From contig JAJEKV010000515.1 in assembly GCA_021234155.1 (NCBI GenBank), positions 62,001 to 126,000 of the forward strand: a stretch of DNA of 64,000 bases. Reading direction: 5' to 3'. A program made the position numbers and the translations under genes. This DNA comes from Isoetes taiwanensis (lineage: Eukaryota; Streptophyta; Lycopodiopsida; Isoetales; Isoetaceae). Below the pieces are notes generated by a model. The model had not been told where the DNA came from and made no database searches. It saw nothing but the letters and a program-made list of their open reading frames with translations. Below are positions 45,972 to 63,797 of the stretch, piece after piece (position 1 is the stretch's first letter; each line of letters begins with the position of its first letter).

Positions 45972-47300
45972 TTGTATTTTGCATAACGTGATAGCTTACT
46001 AAAATAACAATTAAAATTGGAAGGCATGAAACTATTTGATATGCCGGGACATTTGGGAAGGTATATGTTTTAGATAGTAATCATGTATGGCTCATTAATT
46101 TGATAATGACAATATTTCATAATTTCAATACCAATGTCATCTGATGAGATATGACGTGCTATCATTCCAATTCTTCGCTACTTTGTGACCATATCTTGTG
46201 TGCAAGACAATGCTACACTAGCTTCTTCTGCAATGGTTCCTTTTGCCTTTAATGTACTTGGGTCTGCCAGCTGTATTGGGAAAGATAACGGTTATAATGA
46301 TGGTTGGATGCATGTTTCACTTAAAAAGAAGGCAGCTCGACAAAAATGAGCTCCAGCAATTCATATTGGCGATCTAGAATCATTGTATTTTGCATAATAA
46401 ATCGAGACTCCCAGAGTAACTGCGGGGAGGGACTATTTTTCCTCTAGGTTTTAAACCTGTACCTCGGATTAATGTATTTATTTTTCATGATGAGGGGAGG
46501 TAAAAATATTATTCTATTTATTCCAGTTTTCTTTTTTTTTTTCCCGTGGAAAAAAGTTTGTTCATGTTCTCCTTAATGTGTGATACATAAGATATTCCTA
46601 GTTTGATAGTTTAGGCTTGTATATGCAAACCTTTATATCATCAATTTAGCTCAAGCTTATCGTCTTGAATATTTTGATCACCTAATTTCCCTATTCATAT
46701 TGGTAAACTATTCTATTCTATTCTATTCTATTCTATTCTATTCTATTCTATTCTATTCTATTCTATTCTATTGGTTGTCAGATAGACTCAACGTTAGCAA
46801 AAATGAGGCTTCATATGCAACTATAATGCGCCATATGTATTTGGATCTGTTATACTTTCATTTCTTTTGTTACAATTATCAAGGCATCCTAGAATTTAAG
46901 CGCCATAATTAACCACTAATGAATCACTATAGATGTGGTTTTTTATGCAACAAAAATTAATCTTAATAAGAACCACAAGTTATAGTGGCTTTGACGAGTA
47001 ATATACGGTTATTCATGCTGGTTTCCTATTGCAACATGGTTTGTTACGATTGTTAATGGTTTCTCGCATGGTTTTCATGTTACTTTGTTGATGCATGCAT
47101 GGGTTATCCTATTGTTTAAATTTGGTTTTTCCGACAAGTGGAAAACCTTTTTGGAATTTTTTCTAAGATGGTTTTGTAAGGTCTGAAGGCCCGATGTTCC
47201 AAAAATTTAGAAAGCATTTTTGTGCAATTTCAAATGGTTTCGATGTTGCCGGATTTAGGAATTTTTCAGATGAAGCTTCCATCCATGCGTCGTCATTCTG
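45972..47300. other. No recognised gene; contains a (TTCTA)n tract
   Basis: AT-rich sequence. The part at about 46,910-47,110 contains GGTTATTCATG.TGGTTTCCTATTG, which recurs at about 55,040-55,075 just beyond the Helitron 3' end. Confidence 0.5.
46707..46771. repeat. (TTCTA)n microsatellite, about 13 repeats
   Basis: A perfect pentamer array. The same pentamer forms the tail of the RTE-like LINE family here, but no LINE sequence lies on either side. Confidence 0.95.
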
Positions 47301-47339
47301 AAGCATGCACCACAGGCTCTGACTACTATGGTTAGGGTT

Positions 47340-47600
47340 GTGGTATTATGTTACTCTTTTGTATTCAGAGCTACGGGCTGCCACAGGGGATGCATTCGGT
47401 TGCCCATCAAGAGGTATGCGCAATCTAGAAGATTTGCTTGGATCAATTTTTCTGCAGCACGGCATGGGAGCCGCTGGGATCTTCCAAAGCCATGGCCGCC
47501 GTTGCCCATATAGCGTTATTAGCCATGGTAGCCCTCTTGGAAAGGATCTTAGATTGTTGTGCACTCCTGGATATGGAGCAGTGTAATATTGTGTACACGT
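47340..47600. other. Open frames on both strands, GC-richer patch, unrecognised
   Basis: A plus frame (47,338-47,586) and minus frames (47,346-47,564; 47,443-47,673) overlap in a patch that is richer in GC than its surroundings. It may be another captured exon. No family was recognised. Confidence 0.3.
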
Positions 47601-47800
47601 GAATGGCCCGGCAAATGACTATTTGGCCGGTGAAATTACATGAACCGCTAGCTCCACAGCAGAAATGCTCCATGTTAATTCAGACTGATTCTATTTTCAA
47701 TAGCCGTCTATTCTGGTATGCTCAATCTTATTGTTCTATTTTCATTTTCTTATCAGGTTCTATATCCAGTTAAAGCAAGATATTTCTGAGCATCTCTGCT

Positions 47801-48100
47801 TTTACTCTATAAATTTTGCTATGCTGTTGTGTATACTTGAATTCTCATATCTACTTCTTTGACATTTACTCATATTAGGTGTAGCATACTCGAAGTGAGG
47901 CTGCATATGTGTGCATATAAAGGAAGCAAGATCAGTCATAGAGTCGTTATCTATTCCTCGAGCATCTCTATTGGTAAATGCTTTTACTCTATAAATTTTG
48001 CGATGATGTTGTGTATACTTGAACTCTCATAGCTACTTCTTTGACATTTACTCATATTATGTGTGGCATACTCTAGGGCAGAGCTTCATATATGTGCACA
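47801..48100. repeat. Tandem duplication, about 182-bp period
   Basis: TTTACTCTATAAATTTTG starts at about 47,801 and again at 47,983. Both copies run through CTACTTCTTTGACATTTACT to a GCATACTC...CATAT.TGTGCA end, with roughly 10% difference. Confidence 0.85.
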
Positions 48101-48264
48101 TCTACAAATGCACTTCACCATCAGACTTTCCAGATTTTTTATTGACTACCAAATGTAGTTTGTGCATGAACTCACATTTTTTTATTCTCCCTACCATTTG
48201 GATTATGCATGGTTTAAGTTGAAGGAACACTGGTGCATCAAAAACAAAGCATTAAACTCAGAGG

Positions 48265-48790
48265 TCGTCTCCTAGAATACCATGCTTGCTGTCTTGCCTT
48301 GACACATTATGGGCACAACAGACACTCTCTTTGGAGGCCTTTACTAATGTAATTCCAGTGCAACTGGAAGGTATGCTCCTAAGTGGTGATTTTTGATGTT
48401 TTTTCTCCTTTATGTGATGGTTTCATTGATGAATTTTGGCTTTTCTTTTTCATGAGCTGAGCTTATGATGCATCCTTGGCTACAACATTATAATTATATC
48501 TTCATGATTATTAGTTTCCGTTCAACAGGGATGGTTGAAGTTGGCACTTTAATTTTACCATTATGAAATGGTCTCCTAGAATATCATGCATGCTGCCTTG
48601 CCTTGGCATGTTNTGGGCACAACAAGCTCCAGTGCAACTGGAAGGTATGCTTTTAAATGCTGATTTTTGTTGTTTTTTCCCTTTGGTGTGATGAATTTAA
48701 TAATGAGTTTTGGCACTTCTTTTTCTAGATTCAAGCATGATGCATCTCTAGCTAGAACATTATAGTAATTTCTTCATGAATATGTAGCAT
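48265..48790 (+). repeat. Duplicated exon-like segment
   Basis: A unit beginning GTCTCCTAGAATA.CATGC lies at about 48,268 and about 48,568. Both contain CCAGTGCAACTGGAAGGTATGC, where AAG|GTATGC reads as a good splice donor, then a T-rich stretch typical of an intron start. The second copy lacks about 35 bp. No protein was recognised. The window's only undetermined base (N) is at 48,613 in the second copy. Confidence 0.7.
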
Positions 48791-49089
48791 AATAATGGGG
48801 GTTTTCTTTGTGTTTTTGTACGCTTTTCACAAAGGTTTTCCTAAGATTTCATGGCGTATTCAAATGGATGTACTAATGCGTACATCTAGAGTGCACCATT
48901 TCTTAGTCGTTGATTTAGCTTTTTTTTTTCAATAGTCCAACATCCAAGGGCTCACAACAAAAGCCCTCTTTTATTTTAGGGGCTGAACATGCAAGGCTGG
49001 TGGATAGCATTTCGGGGCATTCTTGCAAAAATTAATGTTTTTGTGATCGAGTGGAAACAGATTTGGAGTGGAGGGCGTTTGTGCCATAC

Positions 49090-49310
49090 TATTCAAAGTT
49101 TCCATTGGATTGATTCAACTGCCTGTTGTATGTTGGCCGTGGAGGAGGGCAGTTTTAAGGTGATAGCATATAGTGAAAATGCCCCCGAAATGTTGGATTT
49201 GATGCATAAGCCGTGCCTAGTATGGCAAAAAGCAAGATCCGTTAGGGTATGGCGGATTAGGGCGGTGTTCATTCCGAACGAGCGAGAGAGCCTTTTGGGG
49301 CATTGTGGAA
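49090..49310 (+). pseudogene. Phytochrome fragment (N-terminal PAS region)
   Basis: The plus strand reads CMLAVEEGSFKVIAYSENAP, then EMLDLM (49,127-49,204), in a 145-codon open frame starting at 48,989. This is the PAS segment near the N terminus of plant phytochromes, closest by eye to the phyB/phyP type ('GCMLAVEE..F.V.AYSENAPEML'). The usual IQPFG just before it reads as IDSTAC, and after EMLDLM the expected QAVPSM appears only in another frame. Phytochromes are red/far-red receptors; this piece lacks the chromophore-binding GAF Cys and all later domains. It is a fragment, not a gene. Confidence 0.8.
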
Positions 49311-49654
49311 TGCAAACAAGGGTGGATCGGGCCGCCGTTTTGGATATGGTACACAAGAGGTGGACCGAAGGAAATGAAGGTTACGCTTATGGCTATGGAA
49401 GGCATCAACGTATCAAAGATACATGACCTTGTTGGGTTATGCAAAAATGGCGGAGGTCGGGCAAGGATTCGCCTCCTCTCCTCGTGTTTTTGCATCGCAG
49501 GTTTTCGCGGATGACGGTTTTGGCGGATGAAGAGGCGGCTGGAAGCCAAAGGCTATGATGGTAAATAATGGCAAATCCCCAATTTTTATTGTACTTGTGT
49601 TGATCTTCTGGTAAAAATCCGATGGCGGCATCTCTAAAATGTCACAGCTGTAAA

Positions 49655-49770
49655 ACGAGTCGGTTAATATCAACTTTGAAAGCTTGTGGAAGCCTTGGGA
49701 GTAGAGAAGCGGGAGGTGCATCCACACTTAAAGCGGGAAAAGGTTCAAATGCATCAAAGGTAAGAATGAT
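49655..49770 (+). pseudogene. Probable PPR fragment
   Basis: The plus strand reads LISTLKACGSLGSREAGG and then, in another frame, GRCIH. Plant PLS-class PPR proteins have 'F.S.LKACGSL.AL..G..IH' at the join of two repeats. The match is short, and no second repeat is seen directly next to it. Confidence 0.5.
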
Positions 49771-50859
49771 TAAATTTCAATCGTATAAAGTTACCTTTTT
49801 TTCTTTGCTAACATGATCCCGCCCCTACGAAGAAGGATCAAGCAAAAACAAGGAAGCTCTTTCCATTATCATAAAATTCATGTCGTCTCTCACTTTCAAG
49901 TCCCTCGGTGTTTATATTTTTCACGTAAATCTATCTTTCAGAACCCGGTTTATAGAGGAGACCGAGCAGTTATCCGATATCTGCTTGGGATTGTGACCCA
50001 CTATACGCCAATTTTAATTACAATGCAATGTATAGCATTGCGTAGTTCAAATGTTTTTCATGCTCATAACTTTCTGTTGTTATTTTCGAGTTTTGGTATA
50101 GATCAACTGGCCGTCCGAAGCCCCTTGCGCAGATCTCATGAATCCTAAACATGCGGGGATCAATCTCGTTCTCCGAGAGGACTTGGAATCTCCACTCGCA
50201 GTATTTACGAGCTTAGCCGATGCAAGATTGACCCTAAAAGCCCAGTGTAGATGGCTAAGGCCAATTTTCCCCATTAGAAAATGCTGCTTGAAACCAATGT
50301 GTTCAAGACCCAAGGTGCCATTGCACCACTACCAGGGAGGAAGGGGGGATTTATTAACATCTACGAAGACCCATACCACGAGAGCAAATATGTACGGTTA
50401 GTTTGAACCTGCAAGGACGGTATGAGCCTCTTAGTCATTTCATGTAATCGTTTGCCAGAAAACTTCTTAGTAAACATTTCTTACAAAGAAAATGGCAGGG
50501 CTTTTGTTCAAAAACTCGCACTAAATTTCTAGTTCATGGCAGTAATTATTTTCATATACTTTTCTGCTTAAAAGCTCACATTATTGGATCCCTTTGGCAT
50601 TTAAAACACTGGCATTAATTTGCTTTAACTTCAGTAGAGGATGTTCAAGCTTCTCCAAATGTAGCATGGGCAATGGCTTGCATGCCAAGTAATGGGGTGA
50701 ACAGGAAGGGGGTGAAGATGCCTTAGGATTTCCAATTCTTATGGTTAATTGACAACCGCTTTTTGGTTAATTCTTATGGTTAATCTTTTGAGTTATCTTG
50801 CAAGAGAAGGCAGCGCTAAGTGGGTGCCTTGTACACATATCATGGTCTGTTGTGGAAAT

Positions 50860-51048
50860 GGGAAGAACTGAACCATGCTTGGTTTCTTTTGTGATCAATG
50901 CGAGAATGAATGTTGCAATTACAAGGGCAAGAAGACAATGCTGCATCATTTGTGATATCTTAATAGATGTCTCGTCGGGGGCTTCCTTAAGCGGCTTATT
51001 GACTATTTTGAGAAGAATGAGGAATATCTGAATGCCATGTATATATAG
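50860..51048 (+). pseudogene. SMUBP2/IGHMBP2-type helicase, 3'-terminal fragment
   Basis: The plus strand reads MNVAITRARRQCCIICD (50,906-50,956), the motif VI region of UPF1-like SF1 helicases, and its QCC.(V/I)CD extension is that of the SMUBP2/IGHMBP2 group. After one frame change it reads FLKRLIDYFEKNEEYLNAMY with stop TAG at 51,046-51,048, matching the family's C-terminal 'FLKRL..YFE..GEYLSA'. Upstream EPCLVSFV takes the place of the usual 'EAIVISMVRSN...GFL' and lacks about 10 residues. No ATP-binding or other helicase motifs are present. A partial second copy of the last 60 bp follows at 51,064-51,123. Confidence 0.8.
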
Positions 51049-51063
51049 ATTGCTAGGAAATTG

Positions 51064-51123
51064 TTAAGCGGTTTATTGATTTTTTTTGAGAAAAATGGGC
51101 AACACTTGAATGCCATGTATATA
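51064..51123 (+). repeat. Second copy of the helicase 3' end
   Basis: TTAAGCGG.TTATTGA.T.TTTTGAGAA and TTGAATGCCATGTATATA recur here, about 75 bp downstream of the first copy, with about 15% difference. Confidence 0.75.
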
Positions 51124-51249
51124 AGAATGCATACATGCAATCATCAATTGAATCCCTTTGCCATGGAAATAATTTGTTTGTCTTCATGTTATTGTGCTTT
51201 TTAGTAATTAATATTTACGTCCATAAGGTCTACCTATGTTTGCTTTAGT

Positions 51250-51640
51250 TAGGGCCCGAAGGGCCCCAAATGTTTTTTTAACACAACTACCATTAACATT
51301 ATTAACATAAACCATTGCATTTAACACATTTAAATTAAAATCCCCTTAAACCCCTTTGGTTTGGGTGCATATTCACACCGGGGGTTCGTAGGGGTGGTGA
51401 GCCTCAAAAATATATTCACAATACACGCATACAAAATTAACACCATTAAGTACATTCTCTCAAACCTTATAGTATTTTGCAAACCTTAATATCTGAAGAT
51501 ACAAAAACACATGACATGCATACCCCTACAAACGAGGATCGCTATGTACGGTCCGGATCTTGGAATAAAGGGCAAATATGCCCATCCGAAGCTCTCGTTG
51601 CGGGAGTAACCCCGTGTGAATATGATGAAGTCTCATGAAT
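51250..51640. other. No recognised gene; GC hairpin at 51,252-51,266
   Basis: GGGCCCGAAGGGCCC can form a 6-bp stem. The rest is AT-rich with no recognised feature. Confidence 0.5.
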
Positions 51641-51647
51641 GATTCCG

Positions 51648-51777
51648 CAGATGACAACGATATAATCACCAGCAAATGCCTGAATTTTTGCATTTAAGTG
51701 CATGGACAGTTCTACAGATGACAACGATATAATCACCAGCAAATGCCTGAATTTTTGCATTTAAGTGCAAATTTGAA
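51648..51777. repeat. Perfect tandem duplication, 67-bp period
   Basis: CAGATGACAACGATATAATC starts at about 51,649 and 51,716. The two copies are identical through TTTTTGCATTTAAGTGCA, which implies a young duplication. Confidence 0.92.
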
Positions 51778-52042
51778 GAGGGTATGCACTTACCCAAGCA
51801 AATAAGTATTCTATCCTGATTTATACTCCAAGACATTGTTTAATGCGATAGTTGTTTATGCTCTATTCTATATTGATTTTGATACTTGCATTGCTACCAT
51901 TTGCATGACTTGAGAATGACATGTCGCACATGATGGTAAACTTTCATACAAATTAAGCAGTCATGAATTCGTCATGAAGGTGGCATGAAGAGTGCATTCA
52001 ATTTTGCATGAGGTAATTTGTTCTTTAGTTTGAGCAGGGTAC

Positions 52043-52224
52043 CAAAGTATTACTGCGCTGTTATTGATGCTTCTGGGCACTGCGAGCTTATCAAAGACTT
52101 GATTATTGGAACCTCACAGGCTGATTCTACAGTCTGATTATTTATTCTACGACTAGAGACTTTGGGGCTGGTATTTCTAAGGATGGTCGGACATGAGAAG
52201 ATGCAGTTCTTGCTTTCACATTAA
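52043..52224 (+). pseudogene. EF-1alpha fragment, copy 1
   Basis: The plus strand reads [20 protein letters not shown], then GTSQADSTV, which corresponds to '[29 protein letters not shown]' of elongation factor 1-alpha. This covers the G3 (DxPGH) motif of its GTPase domain, here DASGH. In other frames it goes on to match GISKDGQTREHA..AFTL at the DNA level. EF-1alpha delivers aminoacyl-tRNA to the ribosome; this piece is about 60 codons with a stop and frame changes. Confidence 0.85.
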
Positions 52225-52502
52225 ATCATCGTGGTTTAGTTACTTCCATAAAACTGAACCATATCTTCATAGGTGTTGACAAGTGAAGGGGATTACGAAT
52301 ATTACAGTATTTTGCTTGAGTTTGAATCGTTCCTTATGTGTACTCTCTGCTTATGCTAAATTTACTTTGTGGTCACCATCCTGCATTCTCATGCAGACCT
52401 TATATCCTCTCTATCATGCCAATTTATTTAATATGCATAATTCGTCCAACAAAATGGGTTCACAAAATCCACTTAAATTGTTTTGTGGAAGTTTGAGAGC
52501 AT

Positions 52503-52672
52503 AAAGTATTCTCAAGGCTATTATTGATGCTTACGGACACCTTTGAATTTCTCAAAAACTTGATTACTGGAACCTCACAGGTTGATTGTGCAGTCTAATT
52601 ATGCATTCTTGGGGCTGGTATTTCTAAGGAAGTTCAGACATGAGAACATGCAGTTCTTGATTTCACATTGCG
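52503..52672 (+). pseudogene. EF-1alpha fragment, copy 2
   Basis: This aligns at DNA level with 52,050-52,224 (shared TATTATTGATGCTT, GGAACCTCACAGG, GGGGCTGGTATTTCTAAGGA, GAACATGCAGTTCTTG) and covers the same EF-1alpha region. It lacks about 15 bp present in copy 1 and carries its own interruptions. Both copies stop at the same place, so they probably arose by duplication of one captured piece. The copies are about 460 bp apart. Confidence 0.8.
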
Positions 52673-52764
52673 AAATGTTTCAATAGACTCCCATATGTTG
52701 GCAACAAGAAGGAGGGTGACCATTCAAATGCCATAATCAAAGGTAAAGAAGCTAAAGTTTTTGT

Positions 52765-52990
52765 ATCAAAGAATCTGCTAAATGTGGGAGTATATGCAAG
52801 CTCTTTCACTCTTTGACAAGATGCCTTAACATGGTCTTTTGGAATCACGTTGATATTTGGTATATGGAGAGGATTATCAATGTGCCCCGGAGAGGATTAC
52901 CAATGTGCCCTTCATTTATTTCTCCCATGCAAGGCGAAGACTTTAGACCAAATGATCTAACTTATGTTCTTTGTAAAAGTTTGGAGCGGA
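52765..52990 (+). pseudogene. PPR protein fragment
   Basis: Plus-strand frames give SAKCGSIC (about 52,770-52,795), LSLFDKMP (about 52,800-52,825) and MQGEDFRPNDLTYV (about 52,926-52,968). In PLS-class pentatricopeptide proteins these sit in this order in one repeat ('YAKCGSI..A..LFDKMP..D.VSW...I.GY...G...A..LF..MQ.E...PN..T'). PPR proteins bind organellar RNA. GAGAGGATTA.CAATGTGCCC is repeated once inside, which lengthens the spacing. At least three frame changes interrupt it. Confidence 0.75.
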
Positions 52991-53099
52991 TAAGGTATTT
53001 ACATGTACTTAATCTGAGGCATAGTGAGTACAACTCGAACTTAAAGGGACCAAATAGATGCATTACAGTTTCCTACAAATCGGTTCTATGCAAATCATA

Positions 53100-54880
53100 A
53101 GCTTCCTGGACTGTCTCTTTTGGCAAATATGAAAGTAAAATTTGGTTATTTTATTACTCTTTGTACATGTACTTTCCCTGCATATAGACTGGAACAACTC
53201 AAGCTCCATATCTTATTTGCAAAGTGATGCATAGAACTGTAGTATGAAGGGAGAATAAAAAGGTATTGGTTTCAATTTTACATGTATTTATCAATTTGTA
53301 TTTAAGAAATGGAGGAGCAAAAGCTAGACTGTTGTTTTGTAGGCTCATTAATTCTTATTTTTTGCAGTCATTCATTTACATTTCTCTTGCATGTGATCAC
53401 ATAAAATAAGGCGATGGACTACTTAAATAGCTGTTGATATGCACCTATATCCAAAAAGAAGAGGCCTCTAACATAGGTATTACGAAATACCAGTTCATTT
53501 GAAATAGACTTCTTCTGAGCACAAAGGAAAGTCCTCTACCTTTAAGTATAAATGAAATAACCCACTGTTGAAATTCTTAGATTATATAACTGTTGAGTCT
53601 AATAGCAGAGTATTAACACATAAATATTAATCGAAAATTGACTTATTTTGAGCAAAAACGAATGCCCCTTAGTTTTTAGTGTAATCTAAGTAACATGTTG
53701 AATTCTTGAATGATTGATCATGCTAAATGTAGTAACAAGTTGGTTTTAATACTCAATTGAGTTCATTAGCCAATTTTGTTGAAGAACATATTTTGTGAGC
53801 CAATTCCGTTGAAGAAGATACTCTATATAAGTGCTATGGGTGTACCAATAGTACACCACTTAATCATAGACAAGAAAACATTGAAACTCAAAATCTCAAA
53901 AAAAAAAAATTGGTGGCCACATCATTTAAATTGGCATTTCTAGAATGCATGTACAAGAACCACGGCGTAGGTCCTCAATTGCTAAGGACCATGTATCAGG
54001 GACCACGTATTAGATTTCCCAATTGGTTGGTTCCTTTGCTTAGACATAGCATTTAGGAAATAATGTTCTTTATAGTGTTTGTTCTTTATAGTATTGTAGT
54101 CATTAGGAAATGAAAGATATTCGTTGCAACACAATGCCTTTGTTCTTTATAGTATTGTAGTATTTAATGACAACCATAAAAAAGTTGAGCTATCTATCAT
54201 TTTCTAATAAGCAACCGTTCCCGCTTTTCATGTTTTACCATCCACAAATTAATATGGTTGTAACATTACGAATGGTTGCTAAAGATTGACAATGATGCAT
54301 ACCTATTGAATTATTTATGTACATCATTTCTAAGAACTCTCCATAGATCATTTCTCCTTAGGCCATTTCGTCTTCGTGCCTCATTTCTTAGTTGCAGTAT
54401 TATCATGGTATCAAGCCATGATTGTCTAAAAGCAATGAGAAATGGTCGTCTCTTCATATATAGAGGTTCTACTCATCAAATGACTCGCTCATGGAGCTCT
54501 CCTAAAGTGGAGCAAAATTGAGCAATGTAAGGCACTTTGATATTAGCGTAGCATATCCTAAACCAATAGAGTCAAAATATCTTTATTAATTCAACATATT
54601 GGCTAGAAGGGCCAACTCTAAGAACTGCCTTCATGCCAAGCAACAATATTGGTAATCGAGTCTAGATAGATTTGAATAATATCACTTAATTGAGGAAGAA
54701 ACAAAGTGATAGAGTTAGCATACTCTAAACCGATGCTTTACTATTCTCCTTCTTGCAATTTTCAAAATGTCTTTCTAAGAGTCTTCATCTTATATTGTTG
54801 TCTGTAAGAGACATTGAGGATCAACTATCCATACTGTCTATTCTAGCCAACAATGAAACAACCAGGTATTCACATTGTTA
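53100..54880. other. No recognised gene
   Basis: AT-rich. A short local repeat (TTTGTTCTTTATAGTATTGTAGT) occurs twice at about 54,077-54,160. An 81-codon plus-strand frame at 54,276-54,521 has no recognised motif. Confidence 0.5.
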
Positions 54881-54912
54881 CTAAGCCCGGCAACGCCGGG
54901 CACCATAACTAG
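54881..54912 (+). mobile_element. Helitron 3' terminus
   Basis: A perfect 7-bp stem, GCCCGGC-AAC-GCCGGGC (54,885-54,901), is followed by 7 nt and then CTAG at 54,909-54,912, with T next. A GC hairpin about 7-12 nt before a final CTRR is the diagnostic 3' end of Helitrons, where rolling-circle replication stops. The element lies upstream on the plus strand. Confidence 0.82.
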
Positions 54913-55264
54913 TTATTTTGGTAGCCATTTTGTAGTATGGGTTTTCAATGCTAATTATTTTATTTGACGATGATTATCTATGTGGGTTTCTTTTTATAGT
55001 ATGGTTAGTGTTACATGGTGTTTGGCACTGCCAATTTAAATATCTAATGGTTATTCATGATGGTTTCCTATTGCTGCATTGACTATTAAAACTCGACTAT
55101 AGTTTGTAGCACGACTTTCCATAACAATTTAGTTTGCATAGTGGTTATTTGTAATTGTCAACTAAAGTGGTGGTTATTCATAGTGGTTACACTGAAAGCA
55201 CTTCAATAGATAAATACTAGCAAAATGGGATGGGCTTGGGCAAAGGATTAGGTGCGATTTAAAA

Positions 55265-55705
55265 AGAGAATAGAATAGAATAGAATAGAATAGAATAGAA
55301 TAGATTTTTTATCATCCACGGAGACCAACTGGCCTATGGGACCCAAACAAAAGAGAGCAAAGAAACGATATTCTTGTCGATTAAAATACCACGCCCAAAA
55401 GGGTTTTGGGAAAAACCTTAGCAGATAATAAGCACGCTTCTAAGATTAATTTGTACAATTGTATAGGACAATTTAGTATCTTGTCCGAGGGACACAACCG
55501 AGTCCCGTGTATCCATAACCTCTTGGAGGTATGACCTCAACAAGCCCACGGATGTCAGAGTATTCAATAACTCATGCACGGTGGTTGGTGGGGCACAACT
55601 AACCCGAACATACCGCTAGCCTTTCGGATATGGGCAAATTTGAAGGGCAGTGATCCGGAGGGCATGACATTCATCTTCATGGCATCCCCTGGTGGCATCA
55701 ATGAC
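55265..55705 (-). mobile_element. LINE, copy 3 of the RTE-like family, 3' end only
   Basis: The 3'-most 400 bp of the family, on the minus strand, matches 773-1,190 in order: CCACG.GGAGACCAAC.GGCCT, GGGTTT.GGGAAAAACCTTAG, GGGGCACAACTAACC. It ends in (TATTC)n at 55,266-55,305 with about eight repeats. Everything upstream is missing, consistent with 5' truncation at insertion. No clear target duplication was found. It lies about 350 bp beyond the Helitron 3' end. Confidence 0.85.
55266..55305 (-). repeat. (TATTC)n LINE tail
   Basis: About eight AATAG repeats on the plus strand, directly at the LINE 3' end. Confidence 0.9.
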
Positions 55706-61639: not shown

Positions 61640-63797
61640 CTAGCAAGTGGGCAAATCACGAGGTGGTGGAGGAAGGACGTGGTCTGCTTGGGCACCATTG
61701 GTAACGATAAAAGCAGTCTCCATTCCCCATGAAACGTGTCCATCAAAGTGGCAATGCATCAACCAAACACCTAAACCACAAAATCAAAAGAACTTGTCAG
61801 CAAGCAAAACAAGTAACATATATACAATTAAGGTAACTTGCAAAGGGATACAAACCTGGGTTATCAGCCTTGAATCTCAAAGCAGTCCAACCAGCCTTAG
61901 TGACCATGCCAGTGTTTCTTCTAGCAGGGTCGACAAGGTTAAAAGTAGCAGGGTCTTTGGCAGGGTCATAGTTACCCTCTCCATAACCCACAACGTAGAA
62001 GTCATAACCATGCAGGTGGAAGGGGTGAGCTTCAGCCTGGAAATTGATGGTACCTTGGATGATGAGCTGAACGTTGGAACCGCATGGAATCTCTGTCACC
62101 CTGGTACCCTTTTCTGATGCTAATCTGCTGGCGTCAAGCTGCTGCCCAGTGTAGTCATATGTAGTAGCCGGATAGGCAGGAAAATCTGTAGTGTAAACTC
62201 CGCTTATATTGTGGTAGTATGCTTCCAAAAGAGATATCTGTGGTGTCTGGAATGTAATGTTGTTTATCGAGCTTGCAAAGCTTCTGTTGTATGGCCCTAA
62301 ACATAACGAACTTGGAGTTACAGTGCATGGCTCTACATTTAGCGACACTACCCAGTACAGATTCACGTCTACTGTCTGTGGCACCTCTGCAGGATATTCC
62401 TTTGAATTTAAGAACCTTATATCCCTTTGGGATTGGTCAAAAAAGCCTGTGTCGTTTTTGCTTGGCACGTTGTCTGGATAAAGTGGTCTTGAAGAAGTAT
62501 TTGCTCCGTTGTATCTCAAAATTGCTAATGCTGGTGTTTCTTGTACACCGTTTATTTCAGATCTCTCGAAGGGAGAAATTACTATGTAGTATTGGCCTAC
62601 TGGTTGATTTGCAGTGAGGAGGAAACTGTAGGTCTGGCCTGGAGAGATCAGAAAACTGGTATTTGTGATCCTCTTTGTGTAGCATGCATCAGTTTCTACC
62701 ACTGTAAGATTGTGGTTTGCAACTGTAATGAATAGGTCGGTTTCTAAGGCATTGTTGATGACTCTGAGAAGATGTCGTCGACCCTTCTTAACATGTACAA
62801 TCTCTGTGTCTGCCAAGGGAAAAAAAAGTAGAAACATATAACCTATGAGTACGAATTCATGAGGATTCAGCCTGCTAAATTATGTTTGTGTGTAAGTTGT
62901 AACTTTAAACTTACCATGGGCCGAGCAGTTGAAGAGGGGACCAGGATGACCATTGATCAGGTAAGCATTCGACAAGGCAGGAGCTACTCCCTTTATCCTT
63001 GCCTCATTTTCAACCTCCTCAAGATCTTCATTCCACCATTCCCCTGAAAAATCAAGAGCCACTTTCCTGTCAGAAATCTTCTAATAAAACCCAGAAATGC
63101 TATTAACTTGGCAAAAGTCCCCTGATTATTACCAAGTAATAAAGTGTGTGCTCCATGAGGTTTTCGAAACGGAAGCTTTTATTAGCAGGAGGGTCTATGA
63201 TAAATGCTCCATACACTGTGCCCCTCAGCCAGGATATATGCGCATGCCAAAACAGAGTTCCTTGTTGATCTGGCACAGTGAAGTTGTATATGTAGGATCT
63301 ACCAGTTTGAATTGGACACTGCGTTATATACGCAGGACCATCTGCCCAGGATGAAAATCTTTGGTTTATTCCATGCCTGCAATAAAGACCACACCGTCCT
63401 TTTTTGTCATTTAAAAGCTCTTTAAGTAACTTAACTTAGTTAGCTTATTGACAAAACACAAACTGACCAGTGAATTGTCACATTATGTGAAACCAAATTC
63501 GTTACATTCACAATAACTCTATCGCCTTTAGTGATATGAATGGTTGGTCCTGGTGATTGACCATTTACTGCTACAATTTGCTTACTGTGGCACGCAACTG
63601 TGTAGTTTGCATAATCAATCTGTTTAAATATACTCAAGTATCAGAAATCAGAACTGCTGAGTAGCTTAGCATCGGAACATAAGGTACAAAGACTGAACCT
63701 GAAAATTGTAGTAACGAGTAACTGCGCCTGTGCTATGGAAGCAACTTAGGCAGACTAGAAGCAGAGGCAAAACGATTCTGAGTCCAGAAATCTTCAT
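61640..63797 (-). CDS. Laccase (multicopper oxidase), six exons
   Basis: Secreted copper oxidase that oxidises phenolics with O2, typically monolignols or flavonoids in the cell wall. Exons on the minus strand: 63,797-63,699; 63,619-63,468; 63,376-63,133; 63,043-62,915; 62,809-61,856; 61,770-61,640 (stop TAG). All introns are GT-AG and 79-105 bp. The product would be about 569 residues, normal for plant laccases. The start gives a signal peptide ([19 protein letters not shown]). Copper motifs: HWHG (across exons 2/3), WHAHISW, HPFHLHG and [12 protein letters not shown]. The residue 10 after the HCH Cys, the type-1 copper axial position, is Met where most plant laccases have Leu. One base seems missing near 63,159-63,164 in exon 3: GAAAACCTCATGG should read as E-K-P-H, and only then do the exon 3/4 phases agree. 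A homopolymer error is the likeliest cause, but a true frameshift is possible. No neighbouring gene is present. Confidence 0.93.

Follow-up and report, generated by a model that had tools for sequence, protein, structure and literature searches.

We analysed a stretch of 64,000 nucleotides from the lycophyte Isoetes taiwanensis (assembly GCA_021234155.1, contig JAJEKV010000515.1, positions 62,001 to 126,000 of the forward strand; G000:C237:62001-126000 in our numbering), hereafter the window, and compared it with the same genome, which comprises 1,658,258,908 bases in 1110 contigs. The 7806 bp at 47107..54912, on the plus strand, are very probably a non-autonomous mosaic Helitron that was built in steps and that carries, nested in its 5' half, a copy of another repeat family (block B). 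An initial annotation, made from the sequence alone, had proposed a Helitron closing at 54912 that captured pieces of phytochrome, SMUBP2-type helicase, EF-1alpha (twice) and PPR genes in one orientation. A Helitron containing gene pieces is what we found, but the pieces would have arrived by about two imports and not by four independent captures.

Ends of the element and insertion site

Regarding the 3'-end, the terminal region (54829..54912, plus strand) consists of a GC hairpin, GCCCGGCaacGCCGGGC (54885-54901), followed by the 7 nt ACCATAA and by CTAG (54909-54912), exactly the canonical terminus that the initial annotation had recognised. The hairpin has a fold z-score of -3.75, and none of 200 shuffled sequences folded equally well or better. 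The final 85 bp or so before 54912 recur at 39 other places in the genome (40 scored among 1107 candidates), and a profile of the 3'-end has a single match in the window, at 54827-54912 (E 5e-26). We fetched 20 of the 39 copies. A T directly follows CTAG in all 20, and ten of them show a clear common 5'-end, A|TCAATCTTGTTAATTTGG or variants of it, where the TC is preceded by A in every case. At 54829, around 170 bases of one copy (L003) are absent from the window.

The 5'-end was placed by means of these copies, as had been proposed. A profile built from the ten copies, with the window sequence excluded, was scanned over the 64-kb window at E <= 0.01 and gave a single match (nhmmer, 47117-47172, E 3.7e-4, 19.3 bits). 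A|TC accordingly falls at 47106|47107, upstream of all the gene fragments. The 5' terminal region (47107..47181, plus strand) thus begins A|TCCTATTGTTTAAATTTGG, and four loci begin to match the window at 47102-47106. The same profile gives weak matches, like that of the window, at the corresponding place of C956, C974, C912 and C941, and a match at E 3.3e-10 in C1018 (L040). Among the other ten fetched copies L020 alone matches the profile (E 0.006); L020, L023 and L010 align at the 5'-end with one another or with the window, and in the remaining seven the 5'-end was not found within the DNA stretch fetched.

The element lies inside an older interspersed repeat, whose left part is found at 46880..47106 and whose right part at 54913..55289 (both on the plus strand; the right part was delimited by the empty-site alignment, in which the two flanks in succession served as query, positions 180-783). 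As empty sites, L041 and L042 align with 46880-47106 joined to 54913-55289, at identities of 93% (566/609) and 92% (562/612) respectively. In both of them GGGTTA runs directly into TTATTTT, so that the unoccupied join would read ATGGGTTA|TTATTTT. These alignments contain 10 and 13 gap positions, some of them about 10 bases to the left of the junction and none at the junction itself. Therefore, the element corresponds to 47107-54912 and was inserted between A (47106) and T (54913) without duplication. Moreover, on the left side 15 of the 16 other matches of the flanking repeat end at 47107. The sixteenth, C1039 (L085, G000:C1039:14670400-14671500), extends to 47189, and there a related Helitron 5'-end (profile E 1.2e-5) is found around 11 bases further along the same repeat, with a T and not an A preceding the TC. 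This is a second, separate insertion into a short stretch of the same repeat and does not contradict the boundary at 47107.

The element shows the structural hallmarks of a Helitron, namely a TC start after an A, supported by the profile and the relatives, a 3' CTRR that a short GC hairpin precedes at a distance of a few bases, and an insertion between A and T, seen against the two empty sites, that lacks a target-site duplication. It also lacks terminal inverted repeats, as none of 24 inverted pairs joins both ends, those at 46705/55264 being microsatellite sequence beyond its borders. As to the machinery, no Rep domain matched when 20 of the 78 listed sense-strand pieces from the window were scanned, and the element is therefore taken as non-autonomous. 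Genome-wide, all 150 scored matches to the Helitron Rep domain (1813 candidates) were above the cut-off, several of them in frames longer than 1000 amino acids. Two members of the family, L022 and L024, are 99.1% identical across 4.6 kb and have different flanks, which points to recent mobility of the family.

Composition of the element

In order to define blocks, pieces of the element were searched against the same genome and the fetched loci were aligned. By this comparison the element is a mosaic of four sequence sources, which we call blocks A to D. Block A, on the plus strand like all the others, is sequence of the Helitrons that we call group I and falls into two parts. The first (47107..48779) is covered completely, at 80-84% identity, by C956, C912, C974 and C941, and its continuation (51625..52042) is covered to 94-100%, at 91-92%, by the same four loci. 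Together with C1018, these loci, which share block A in whole or in part, have the same kind of 5'-end. No gene was recognised in block A, where three pieces were scanned and gave no Pfam match at E <= 1. All five loci pass from 48779-48784 straight to 51617-51623, which means that block B is absent from every fetched locus that covers the site. In C1032 (6212099, 6215468 and 6218868) and in C1018 (35821814 and 35825275) the group I matches lie on one strand at a spacing of about 3.4 kb, and these may be tandem head-to-tail copies.

Block C (52043..54440) is cargo shared with EF-1alpha-bearing Helitrons at C1033, C1031, C1052, C1087 and C1096. The copy at C1033 has the family 5'-end (E 4.9e-19) and the 3' hairpin (E 2.4e-8) closed by CTAG|T, and that at C1031 has both ends as well (E 6.7e-11 and 9.4e-6). 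The 3'-end is present in C1052 and C1096, and no Helitron end was found in the stretch fetched for C1087. Thus, block C lies inside Helitrons with the ends of this family, and the EF-1alpha block was already Helitron cargo. Block D (54441..54912) is the 3' part that recurs in other family members; six loci cover half of it or more.

The joins between these sources appear to be private to the window. The join 52042/52043 is spanned by the window alone among 33 matches (all 33 candidates scored), and the matches from both sides meet there or overlap by at most 8 bases. Likewise, of 41 matches around the join 51624/51625 none but the window's own crosses it; 35 are on the block B side, 4 on the Helitron side and 2 are the window itself (40 of 452 candidates scored). 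To judge from these matches, the genome probably contains the mosaic only once.

The first EF-1alpha fragment (52039..52131, plus strand) matches its protein in PDB at E 1.9e-6, and Pfam GTP_EFTU at E 0.011, below the cut-off of that family; its first two residues include the join 52042/52043. The second fragment (52517..52669, plus strand) is a tandem duplicate of the first, recognised from DNA repeats (D6, D7 and D20, 83-92% identical to copy 1), since its protein piece gave no EF match. In these Helitrons the whole unit (52043-52669) occurs as tandem repeats, and C1033 (L045) seems to have more units than the window. Next to it lies a decayed, putative PPR-like fragment, approximately at 52661..52813 on the plus strand. 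None of ten window pieces gave a match to PPR proteins, and there was no Pfam match either. The equivalent piece of the sister element at C1033, in the same frame, matches a synthetic PPR-DYW protein at E 1.2e-4 over the whole piece, no single stretch passing by itself, and Pfam PPR was absent in all five C1033 pieces scanned. The PPR-like identity is therefore weakly supported, through that relative. Two other open reading frames, one for an adenylate kinase (L024:1007-1540) and one for a PPR protein (L016:1387-2838), were considered as Helitron cargo and not used, because their coordinates fall outside those Helitrons.

Block B and its gene pieces

Block B (48780..51624, plus strand) is a nested copy of a repeat family that has its own common ends, the right one being truncated in this copy. 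It is 91-92% identical to copies at C1089 and C1034, with a coverage of 93% and 86% respectively, and as members of this unclassified family B we count the window copy, L043, L046 and L048-L078. We fetched 18 left edges, taken from matches that begin at the query start, as well as 13 right edges. The similarity begins at ATATGTAGCATAATAACAGGGGG in all 18 other copies, several of them (e.g. L048-L050, L059, L061, L062 and L064) differing from it by one or a few bases, and by eye the flanks outside it differ among the copies. The preceding base is A in 16 of the 18, T in one and C in one. At the other side all 13 copies end at AATGGTAGTTGTG, the next base being T in 12 cases and C in one. Four of these right flanks (L068, L069, L070 and L074) share around 6 further bases, which speaks against a perfectly sharp right end. 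Regarding the A|T flanking of the family, the attempt to find an empty site used one flank, the left one of L043, which is single-copy.

The common ends of family B, as the other copies show them, are ATATGTAGCATAATAACAGGGGG and AATGGTAGTTGTG, and not the TC start and CTRR hairpin end of a Helitron. In L043 the right end of the family is an inverted copy of 51279-51386, and it directly follows the equivalent of 51624; 51279..51386 (plus strand) is therefore the left arm of a palindrome that closes the family on the right. In the window the copy breaks off at 51624, within the inverted right arm, of which nearly everything is lost. In L072 a right end directly adjoins a left end, head to tail, and in L046 the inner part of the family comes in a different order. 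We tentatively suggest that family B may be an undescribed mobile family, one that lacks both TC/CTRR ends and matching inverted ends, lies mostly after A and before T, has a long terminal palindrome, can lie head to tail and would have spread exon pieces of phytochrome and helicase genes, although we regard this as a minor possibility.

Two gene pieces lie in block B. The phytochrome piece, an N-terminal PAS fragment (49124..49243, plus strand), matches PAS_2 at E 1.1e-6 with 29.8 bits, above the cut-off of 21.4, and phytochrome B in PDB at E 1e-4. The putative fragment of a SMUBP2/IGHMBP2-type helicase motif (50897..50962, plus strand) matches AAA_12 at E 6e-5 with 23.1 bits, below the cut-off of 27, and SMUBP-2 in PDB at E 0.03, where no single stretch was significant alone, so this is a weak assignment. 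Phytochrome and EF-1alpha are therefore confirmed among the genes that had been named, the second EF-1alpha copy at the DNA level, and the helicase and PPR pieces stay as weak candidates. All the recognised pieces are on the plus strand, as had been noted, in short frames between stops; the gene pieces are broken and would probably make no working protein.

A genome-wide search with PAS_2 gave 22 matches (all 47 candidates scored), among which 6 were long, 3 covered only the far end of the domain and 13 were short, spanning only about positions 8/10 to 37/47. Of the six short ones compared with block B, four overlap its matches (C1089, C1034, C1007 and C1036) and two (C13 and C930) are within about 2 kb of such matches. 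The phytochrome piece of the window is itself not among the 22.

Since phytochrome and helicase pieces belong to a separate repeat, block B, and EF-1alpha and putative PPR pieces to one block, C, that other Helitrons of the family already contain, the cargo amounts to about two imports. Outside the element, on the minus strand at 61797-62879, there is an open frame of 360 amino acids, which we take by eye to resemble a multicopper oxidase (laccase-like).

Proposed build of the mosaic and its significance

We suggest a stepwise build, whose order of events is conditional. The 5' half of a group I Helitron would have been fused with the 3' half, cargo included, of the EF-1alpha/PPR-bearing Helitrons, template switching or repair possibly making the join 52042/52043. 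A copy of the unrelated family B, with its phytochrome and helicase pieces, would have inserted in the 5' half, after TTCATGA, and a deletion between TATG words would then have trimmed around 100 bp at its right end. The Helitron would have been copied between an A and a T of the older interspersed repeat, and a Rep/helicase protein encoded at another genomic site presumably moved it in trans. At the block B site the relatives read TTCATGATTATGATGAAGTC in two of five cases and a version altered at one or more positions in the other three, and TATG is present in three of five; in the window the left edge reads TTCATGA|ATATGTAGC and the right edge GTGTGAATATG|ATGAAGTC.

The way in which block B arrived is the point where another explanation keeps some weight. 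An 8-bp word at its edges was read at first as a target-site duplication and then as a capture microhomology, and only after the 18 left ends had been collected was a nested insertion with a small deletion preferred. In a capture, a donor segment would have been copied by template switching or filler-DNA repair through the short shared word GAATATG. The donor L043 indeed has GAATATG at both points bounding block B, the site of the relatives reads GATTATG in three of five cases, and short homologies at joins are a prediction of the filler-DNA model, at least in the portion of its description available to us (PMC6544945). Nevertheless, the word of the relatives differs from GAATATG by one base in those three and by two in the other two, and the right edge is explained equally well by an insertion and a deletion between TATG words. 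Furthermore, the left edge coincides with the common left end of the family in all 18 other copies, where a chance capture need not begin. We therefore consider the capture unlikely, and prefer the nested insertion.

The other alternatives concern the element as a whole. An assembly error that created a chimeric locus would agree with the finding that the joins 51624 and 52042 occur in no other scored locus, but unique joins are also expected of a single insertion and the left edge of block B is the natural end of a repeat, so we think this very improbable. Hardly more credit, and if anything slightly less, is due to a Helitron restricted to 53065-54912 with the gene fragments outside it. Two copies in reverse complement, L010 (7852) and L013 (5828), share the window solely from 53064/53065, at ACAG, to the 3'-end, and their sequences upstream differ from each other. 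This common start was nonetheless dropped as a 5'-end: it is not TC, the empty sites join the flanks at 47106 and 54913, the 5' profile also gives 47107, and the two-ended Helitron at C1033 includes block C, which begins further upstream than 53065. Finally, the pieces might be exons of separate intact host genes beside a Helitron end, to which their lying on one strand would lend some support; the short frames between stops, the recurrence of the same blocks elsewhere with Helitron or family B ends, and the flanks that without the insert form one uninterrupted repeat leave this with practically no probability.

Some points do weigh against the stepwise mosaic Helitron that we propose. L041 and L042, the empty sites that had been called for, are paralogous copies of the repeat and not the orthologous locus. 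The 5'-end of the element is diverged (19 bits), and for the group I relatives no 3'-end was located within the fetched DNA, so only the 5'-end is known there. No Rep/helicase copy bearing these ends was identified, hence the autonomous partner is unproven, and the search across the 51624 join covered 40 of its 452 candidates.

Stepwise growth and nesting, with fragments of several genes, have been described for maize Helitrons (Dong et al. 2011, PMC3288121). As far as the consulted part of that account goes, our element resembles them in the shared ends, the pieces of several genes, the fragmentary homology between relatives and the growth by steps or nesting, and the combination of phytochrome, helicase, EF-1alpha and PPR does not appear there. 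It differs from them in its lycophyte host and in that part of the cargo belongs to a nested element whose ends are not those of a canonical Helitron. With the filler-DNA capture of the insect Hel1, in the sections available of PMC6544945, it shares an internal insertion relative to shorter relatives and short shared words at the joins; unlike in Hel1, the left edge of the insert is here the common end of a repeat family, and this is why the nested insertion is preferred. The read-through capture of Helraiser/Helibat, in the excerpted text of PMC4778049, likewise involves a 3' hairpin and terminus and the capture of DNA by a Helitron, but the cargo of our element is internal and was not appended at the 3'-end through failure of a terminator. 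We found no open-licence literature on the capture of phytochrome together with elongation factor 1 by a Helitron, which is weak evidence of absence, and the word "Helitron" is absent from the main text, as far as it was accessible, of two Isoetes genome papers (one of them PMC8566536). The novelty is thus the lycophyte host and the unclassified family B, stepwise mosaic Helitrons being already known from maize.

We therefore have a fully bounded multi-gene Helitron in a lycophyte. Gene pieces that are aligned in one Helitron need not be captures of that Helitron, and nested passengers can be separated from its cargo by means of relatives that lack the piece together with the ends of the second repeat. 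Such passengers could mislead gene counts, as 13 of the 22 phytochrome PAS_2 matches are the same short stretch. If family B is indeed mobile, it would be movable inside the Helitron by a second machinery, and gene pieces would be spread in this genome by two nested systems.

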